From assembly GCA_963669155.1 (NCBI GenBank), contig OZ022581.1:9357127-9421126 (forward strand): a stretch of 64,000 bases of DNA. Reading direction: 5' to 3'. Each line of letters opens with the position of its first letter. Position 1 is the first letter of the stretch. The notes under the pieces are model-generated. The model did no database searches, had not been told where the DNA came from, and saw only the letters and a program-made list of their open reading frames with translations. Shown piece after piece: positions 11,601 through 14,600 of this stretch. The position numbers and the translations under genes were made by a program. The DNA is from Arbacia lixula. Lineage: Eukaryota; Echinodermata; Echinoidea; Arbacioida; Arbaciidae.

Positions 11601-14600
11601 ATTGCGTTCCGACTTGACATTATTTACTTATCTTGTCTCAATTGTTTCCTGCCAATATACACCTGCCCAGCTTCTTTTTGGATCCATCCACAAAAAATAT
11701 TGTTTCTTTAAATGAATTGTGTTTATTATTTCCTGTTTGTTATAATTGTATCTGAACTTTATGCATGTATTTTATTGGGGTTTTTTGTGGAAAAATACAA
11801 TTAAATCTTGAAGTTGAATCTTGAATATATGAGTGTACTGCATAAAACTCTGTGGAGCTCAGTGCAGAGATAAATTAACCATATCAAATATCTAACCGAG
11901 AGAGCTGTAGTATGTAAATACATACATGTACTTAAAAATGTGAATGAAATTGATGCCCTCAGTAAACAAACATGTTTGTCCTGTAAGATTTAAACGCTTA
12001 AAAAATTAAATACGTGAACAGTTCAATATAAATACTTTAAGGATAAAAACCTACAAACCAAACTTACTATATGTTTGAGTTGTAAAATCAGGGACATTAA
12101 CCATGTGAAAATTTGCTTCAAATTAATTAGCCAGATGAACTGCTGCTCTATGTGCGTTGTTGATACTATTTACACAAACATGATCAATGACTTATAGAGA
12201 GTTCATTCACTTTTGACTTTTTGGCACTTTGACTTTTGACCACACACTTTTAACCTATTCTTTACTGATTCTGCACATTTGCATGCTGGCTTTTCGCTAC
12301 TCAGATACTGAGCAGCACGACTACCACATAAACTGCTGTACAGACAATCTTGACAGGCTGTGAATAAACTTCAAATTCCTTGTAGAGAGCAATGAAAGCA
12401 TACATCTTTGGTTACTGCAGTTCCATGGCCAATGTTGACATCCTAATTGGACCAGGATTCGCGAAGCTTGAAAATCTAACCGTGAGCAATGTGATGTTCT
12501 AAGGTTGACTTCCATTTCGAATTCCTTTCTGCAGCTTGAGAGGCTCCAGGCAGAGAACGCGACCGAGTGGGGCAAGAGGGAGCGGCTGGAGACGGAGAAA
12601 CTCAACCTGGAGCGGGAGAACAAGAAGCAGCGGGCGGAGATTGAGGACCTGAGGGAGACCATCTCCACCAGGACCAAGCAGACCACCATGGAGCTGGAGA
12701 ACACCATTAAGAACATGAAGGAGGATATGAAGAATAATACTATGGTGAGTTAGTGGACCCAGGGTGGATCCAGGGTAGGTGTACAGTAGATACAGGGTAG
12801 GTTAACCATAGGTCCAGGCGAGGTTTAGGCTAGGTTTAGGGTTAGACACTATCAAGGACATGAAGGAGGACATGAAGAACAATACAATAGTGAGTTGGTG
12901 GACCCAGGGTAGATCTGGAGTAGGTTTACAGAAGGTTAAGGGTAGGTTAACCATAGGTCCAGGCTAGGTTTAGGCTAGGTGTAGGCTAGGTTTAGGGTAG
13001 GACACTATCAAGAACATGAAGGAGGACATGAAGAACAATACAATGGTGAGTTGGTGGACCCAGGGTAGATCCGGGGTAGGTTTCTAATAGGTACAGGTTA
13101 GGTTAGGGTGGGTTAACCATAGGTCCAGGCTAGGTTTAGGCTAGGTTTAGGATAGGACACCATCAAGAACATGAAGGAGGACATGAAGAATAATACAATG
13201 GTGAGTGAGTGGACCCAGGGTAGATCCGGGGTAGGTTTACAGTAGATACAAGGTAGGTTTAGGTTGGGTTAACCGTAGGTCCAGGCTAGGTTTAGGGTAG
13301 GTTTAGGGTAGGACACTATCAAGAACATGAAGGCGGACATGAAGAACAATACTATGGGGAGTTTGTGGACCCTGGGTGGATATAGGGTAGAGTCAGGGTA
13401 TGTTTACAGTAGGTATAGGATAGGTAGTATAGGATAGGGGAGGTTAATGATAGGTCCGTTGGATACGACACAAAGGAGGACAAAGGTAGGACCCAATCAA
13501 GAACATGCAAGAGGACATGAATAACAATACACTTGTGAGTTGCGTAGATCAAAAGAGTGATATATGTACAGATAAACGCCAGAATACACATAGCTCCAGG
13601 TTGTATGGAGGTGAGGAAGATAAATTCTGCAATGACATTACTCAATACCATTTTACCTGCAAAATTAAACAAAGGCATATGAAATCACATATAAGGATAA
13701 TGATAATGATTATTTGAAAAGAGTAAATGCCTCTTAAACTAATACATTTACAATAATATTTGCTCATTCCAACTTGTCTTCAGTGTGATAAAAAGGGAGA
13801 AATTAGATTAGCTGAAATCAAATCCACAATCAATTTAATCCAGCTGTGGCCAGCTGTGATTGAGATGTTGGCTGGTAATTACAAGGAACTGTCACAGTTT
13901 GATACAGCTTCGTCTCACAAGACTGGGTGTGGTTTTAGCTATTCTTGTACTACTTGAAGTTAATCAGCAGGAACTGATGATTTGTCTGAAAGGAAGGGTT
14001 ATCTCTGTGGGATGCATTCCCTTTCGCTTCACTCTGCTGTGATACTCTTCGGCTGTCAATTGATTAAAGAGGAATAAAACCCTCATAATGAATTTAATTA
14101 AATAATGGTGCGGCAATCATACAGATAGCTCATTCTTGAGAGGAAGTTGTGAATTTAAAAAAAATCATCACTTCTACAACTTATTTCTAATCATAACCTT
14201 ACATGTTTAGTTATTCATTATTATCCTTTAATTGTAGATTGCAACAGACAAATACGCCATTGGTAAAATATGATGGGAAGACTGAAGAGAGAAGACGAGA
14301 AGAAAAAGTCAATTTCCTGAGTTTTAAGTATTATTGATAAATATTGTGGTACGGTATGAAGTACATGCAGGAAAACCTGAGTCGCTGGGGAGACATGAAA
14401 TAAGATAAGAAGCGCAATTGTCTAGGCAGACGGGAATGTAAACGTCTGGAGGGCAGGAAAGCTGATGTGCAGTAGAACCTTGGGCTGTATCTTGATCAAA
14501 GGTGAAGAAACATCTTGACATGTGATTCAGGGAAACATATCTTGAGGCTGCACATATGCTCATGACGTCATCATCACATCAGTCTACGATCTCTTGTGGC

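Follow-up and report, generated by a model that had tools for sequence, protein, structure and literature searches.

A probable minisatellite that repeats the end of exon 4 and its splice donor within intron 4 of a coiled-coil gene in Arbacia lixula

The gene and the repeats within it

The window, meaning the whole stretch of DNA that was analysed, covers 64,000 nucleotides of Arbacia lixula (assembly GCA_963669155.1, contig OZ022581.1, positions 9,357,127 to 9,421,126 of the forward strand), has a GC content of 38.7% and carries a coiled-coil gene that we take to be CCDC102A-like, a name that comes from an earlier note on this DNA and from a motif of 13 residues in exon 1, and from no database match. 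Six exons (1459-2639, 4139-4247, 10062-10178, 12535-12744, 15496-15666 and 17932-18035) join by conceptual splicing into one frame with no stop, and it is from this open six-exon splice, reaching 18035, that we infer the end of exon 4 at 12744; a search for the last exon, by motif only, did not find it. Exon 4 (12535-12744, + strand) is 210 nt long and in phase 0 at both ends, and exon 5 (15496-15666, + strand) has the acceptor that would be the expected partner of the donor at 12745. For exons 1 and 4 no Pfam family was found; for 15496-15768, an interval that extends past exon 5 into the intron, Pfam gave two coiled-coil matches under the curated cut-offs. Rfam at the gathering threshold and ARAGORN found nothing, and among the 25 pattern matches from a viral-contig scan with exon 4 there was no relative.

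The last 45 nt of exon 4 (12700-12744, + strand), followed by the donor GTGAGT at 12745, recur five times downstream at the start of intron 4, the copies starting at 12845, 13001, 13156, 13312 and 13490 and the start-to-start spacing, from the exon segment through copy 5, being 145, 156, 155, 156 and 178 bp. The earlier note had described the 3′ end of exon 4 and its donor as repeated five times at intervals of ~155 bp; the five copies are indeed present, but the GT donor is retained in four of them (copies 1, 2, 3 and 5), and ~155 bp fits three of the five intervals. The array that remains 3′ of the exon (12745-13534, + strand) consists of ~156 bp units of exon end, donor and G-rich spacer. 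In the one haplotype from which the array is known, TRF reports periods of 156 and 311 and scores of 940 and 856, and alignments of the copy-2 unit to four of its neighbours span 155-166 columns at 70-84% (E ~1e-45 for the best, 4e-13 for the weakest); the TRF scores and these unit-to-unit alignments exclude a chance origin of the array.

All five copies lie on the + strand, and they differ in how much of the exon end and its signals they keep. Copy 1 (12845-12889) carries N5D and M15I, ends in ATA and has GTGAGT in a weaker context; it has no AG at the 45-nt point, and 44 nt follow its AG, which puts it out of frame. Copies 2 (13001-13045) and 3 (13156-13200) are open. Copy 4 (13312-13356) carries E8A and has lost its donor, reading ATG and then GGGAGT, and copy 5 (13490-13534), the edge copy, carries T2P, K7Q, K11N and M15L with its GTGAGT intact. 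That copies 2, 3 and 5 measure exactly 45 nt between an AG and GTGAGT and are open in phase 0, as first noticed by the earlier reader, can be seen directly in the letters. The repeat starts at 12698, ~163 nt into exon 4, and because the unit starts inside the exon it carries a donor and no 3′ end of an intron. In copies 2-5 the AG that precedes the 45 nt corresponds in register to the AG within a GAG codon of the exon (12698-12699), whose counterpart in copy 1 is TA; a match of two letters at a breakpoint could be chance.

The spacers contain 11-bp AGGTTTAGG-like repeats, and the 790-nt array (12745-13534) holds 43 TAGG motifs against ~2.2 at the window's average density, an average that includes the array itself. 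All 43 lie on the + strand and none on the other (CCTA), a strand bias due to the 11-bp repeat. The spacers might have had a telomere-like origin, as TTAGGG occurs five times in the array and a TAGGGT tract at 61770-61849 is weakly similar (best E 0.012), but the spacer period is 11 bp, which makes such an origin less likely.

Several other repeats lie in the window. Intron 5 of the same gene holds a 161-bp tandem array of ~4 copies (16794-17454), with a unit length near that of the exon 4 array; a blastn search of the window at E 1e-3 matched it to nothing beyond the array and the sequence directly at its edge. A 26/38-bp minisatellite at 4025-4129 stops 9 nt before exon 2, and with the array at exon 4 two exon boundaries of the gene therefore adjoin minisatellites. 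At the acceptor of exon 6, the pyrimidine tract is formed by a (TC)n microsatellite (17860-17926). A palindromic MITE-like element of ~220 bp is found at 5085-5310, 9274-9498, 20617-20837, 59283-59489 and 60488-60687, with a fragment at 63792-63836, and every full copy matches the query on each of the two strands, at 81-88% once the match of the query to itself is set aside. At 56818-57289 there is a perfect 235-bp tandem duplication, whose two identical copies are either very recent or an assembly artefact.

Donors and acceptors of the copies

Splice sites were scored with generic matrices of approximate metazoan consensus frequencies, and the percentiles given here are relative ranks within the window, not calibrated probabilities. 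By score only, a usable 5′ splice site is present in copies 2 and 3, which equal the real donor of exon 4 (6.17), with copy 1 at 3.02, copy 5 at 2.93 and copy 4 at none. These donors could act as decoys, such that exon 4 is at times extended to the donor of a downstream copy, with a premature stop and lower output as the result, and such that the UAGG-rich spacers bind an hnRNP A1-like repressor that tunes the process. UAGG is an hnRNP A1 site, and the excess of TAGG in the array, the GT kept by copies 1, 2, 3 and 5, and the finding that extension of exon 4 to any of these four donors reads VS and then a stop would all agree with such a role. However, the 11-bp repeat accounts for the UAGG density, upstream of the copies sits the real donor together with its full exon, and similar arrays of lancelets are said to leave splicing undisturbed (PMC3087553, PMC3902484), so that a role as decoys appears highly improbable.

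Acceptor candidates were ranked against all AGs of the window. The real acceptors of exons 2-6 stand at percentiles 0.966, 0.999, 0.995, 0.998 and 1.000, that is, five of five in the top 3.4%, whereas the AGs of copies 1-5 stand at 0.538, 0.595, 0.735, 0.632 and 0.175, and by score only, a usable 3′ splice site is found in none of the five copies, in that none reaches any of the five real acceptors. Of the 17 positions counted, 11-16 are pyrimidines at the real acceptors and 2-7 at the copies; the nearest upstream AG is 31-149 nt away at the former and 4-6 nt at the latter; and the last 60 nt, the site's own AG included, hold 1-3 AGs versus 8-10. No pyrimidine run anywhere in the array exceeds 5 nt, and a branch-like YTNAY word lies 43-54 nt upstream of every copy's AG. 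The earlier note had itself pointed to weak pyrimidine tracts and many AGs upstream of the copies.

The same note had proposed the array as a series of in-frame mini-exon cassettes, in which copies 2, 3 and 5 would be optional 45-nt exons, each adding 15 residues to the coiled coil. The exact length, the open phase-0 frame and the intact GTGAGT are what such exons would have, copies 2 and 3 have donors equal in score to the real one, and the cassettes have diverged less than the spacers (see below). However, the frame and the length follow once the end of a phase-0 exon is copied from a point close to a codon boundary. Further, none of the three has a pyrimidine tract, their previous AG is only 4-5 nt off, copy 5 ranks lowest of all the copies, the donor of copy 4 is gone, and the private changes of the copies that are not exon-like are non-synonymous. 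With no copy scoring like a real acceptor and no significant synonymous excess among the private changes, the cassette proposal finds no support, and optional mini-exons must be thought highly improbable. Of much the same low order of probability is the scenario by which some copies are spliced in at a low level via non-canonical acceptors, and the coiled coil receives 15-residue additions that vary with a polymorphic minisatellite; if this were true, the array would be a mirage, as boundary repeats of this kind are called in amphioxus, caught turning into exons.

Divergence of exon, copies and spacers

Codon comparison agrees with the earlier statement that five of the six differences between copy 2 and the exon are synonymous, the sixth being non-synonymous. 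The synonymous states of copy 2 are shared widely among the copies (ATC and GAC in five of five, AAC and ACA in four of five, ACT in three of five), as is its one non-synonymous state, GAC at codon 1, in five of five. Since the synonymous states are common to three to five of the five copies, they mainly mark drift of the constrained exon, and the differences of copy 2 are best read as those that separate the exon from one ancestor of the array, with selection on the exon as the filter. The private codon changes that are not exon-like, tallied by hand, number two in copy 1, one in copy 4 and four in copy 5, and all seven are non-synonymous; the tally omits three synonymous states that are exon-like, at codons 2 and 12 of copy 3 and codon 14 of copy 4. 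The private ratio of 0:7 (synonymous to non-synonymous) differs from the 5:1 between copy 2 and the exon (Fisher p 0.0047), but if the exon-like states (ACC and AAT in copy 3, ACT in copy 4) are counted as changes in the array the ratio becomes 3:7, and the difference from 5:1 is not significant (p 0.12). Neutrality would lead to 13-20% synonymous changes, and seven of seven non-synonymous then has a probability of 0.22-0.39. The private changes thus hold no significant excess of synonymous ones, in numbers that are small.

The spacers are harder to compare, as the 11-bp repeats make their alignments ambiguous. Among copies 1-3, with the spacer of copy 1 shifted by one small repeat, variable columns number 4 of 45 in the cassette and 28 of 110 in the spacer (Fisher p 0.03), and with the exon unit added they number 8 of 45 and 29 of 100 (p 0.22). 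In a second alignment, differences pooled over the pairs of copies 1-4 amount to 18/270 in the cassette versus 151/585 in the spacer, where the spacer of copy 4 aligns poorly. There, the pairs of copies 1-3 differ at 11/94, 13/94 and 12/104 spacer positions versus 2, 4 and 2 of 45 in the cassette, and the same copies differ from the exon's own spacer at 10-15/94, with no clear extra homogenisation among the copies. Changes were also counted from the consensus of copies 1-3, by which those copies are low by construction, over the cassette and over the 40 nt that follow the donor: exon 4 has 6/45 and 5/40, copies 1-3 have 0-2/45 and 3/40 each, and copy 5 has 7/45 and 33/40, the 3′ edge of the array being its most diverged part. 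Copy 4 (13312-13402) keeps its cassette, with 2/45 changes, but has 12/40 in the stretch directly behind the donor. The lower divergence of the cassettes counts against an inert array; it could come from slippage of the 11-bp repeat, from conversion by the exon, from poor alignment or from a breakpoint behind copy 4, causes that these data do not separate from weak constraint.

Probable origin and parallels in amphioxus

Taken as a whole, the array is very probably a minisatellite-like tandem duplication across the boundary of exon 4 and intron 4, of the kind described as "mirages" in amphioxus, and it is most likely spliced out with intron 4 and inert, as judged from its sequence. We propose that a G-rich repeat of 11 bp first appeared in intron 4 right behind the exon, that a tandem duplication with a unit of ~156 bp may then have taken in the last 45 nt of the exon together with the donor and the repeat, and that more duplication or unequal exchange would have multiplied the unit. 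The array would most likely be removed within the intron at 12745-15495, and most of the synonymous differences would represent the real exon drifting under purifying selection since the duplication. The alternative that the earlier note had set beside its cassettes, that of a minisatellite which captured an exon end, with synonymous drift in the real exon, is supported by these data and matches the amphioxus case. The reverse direction, in which the repeat donated the last 45 nt of the exon, would equally account for a segment common to exon and array, but the exon is open and in frame across the boundary to exon 5 while read-on into the first spacer hits stops, and the copies have private non-synonymous changes, points that weigh weakly against a reading that is in any case the least probable of all.

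Mirages are minisatellite-like duplications of exon-intron boundaries in amphioxus Adh3 and the globins BflGb6 and BflGb9, with units of 10-72 bp in Adh3, of 150-160 bp in BflGb6 (six and three units in two haplotypes) and of 157 bp at the 3′ boundary of exon 2 in BflGb9; according to the authors, their data suggest no interference with regular splicing, although AG/GT signals are kept in many copies (PMC3087553). The present array shares with them a tandem unit that spans the exon-intron boundary, splice signals (AG/GT) kept in many, not all, copies, and a divergent edge copy, here at the 3′ side only, and the 155-156 bp between its central copies lie close to the globin units. It differs in the gene concerned and from the short units of Adh3, and whereas haplotype length variation and normal splicing are reported for amphioxus, the present array is known from sequence alone. 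A ~155 bp unit common to unrelated genes, the globins and the present one, may hint at a common duplication step, the resemblance being one of lengths only. In lancelet, splice sites of the coding gene PGBD5 likewise fall within imperfect tandem repeats, of 60 and 108 bp, so that unit length and gene differ, and troponin C is named alongside it (PMC3902484).

Two further systems are comparable in part. Among human genes that lie in segmental duplications, internal tandem repeats are found where exon and intron meet, and thus a minisatellite at a comparable place, but there splicing and gene structure are altered, with RNA support, and the units average 30 bp (PMC2812944). In intron gain by tandem genomic duplication, a duplicated segment likewise contains splice-like signals, a duplicated AGGT serving as donor and acceptor; however, a new intron is made there, whereas an existing intron appears to have been lengthened here (PMC3443670).

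The kind of repeat is thus one already described, to which the present array adds one more case. Coming from a species other than lancelet, it may extend the range over which mirages are known, within a literature search too limited to exclude others in print. Mirages have been put forward as a source of new introns (PMC3087553), and the array, which copies donors but lacks acceptors, would enlarge by one a set of exon-boundary minisatellites that has been considered as material from which new introns or exons could be made.
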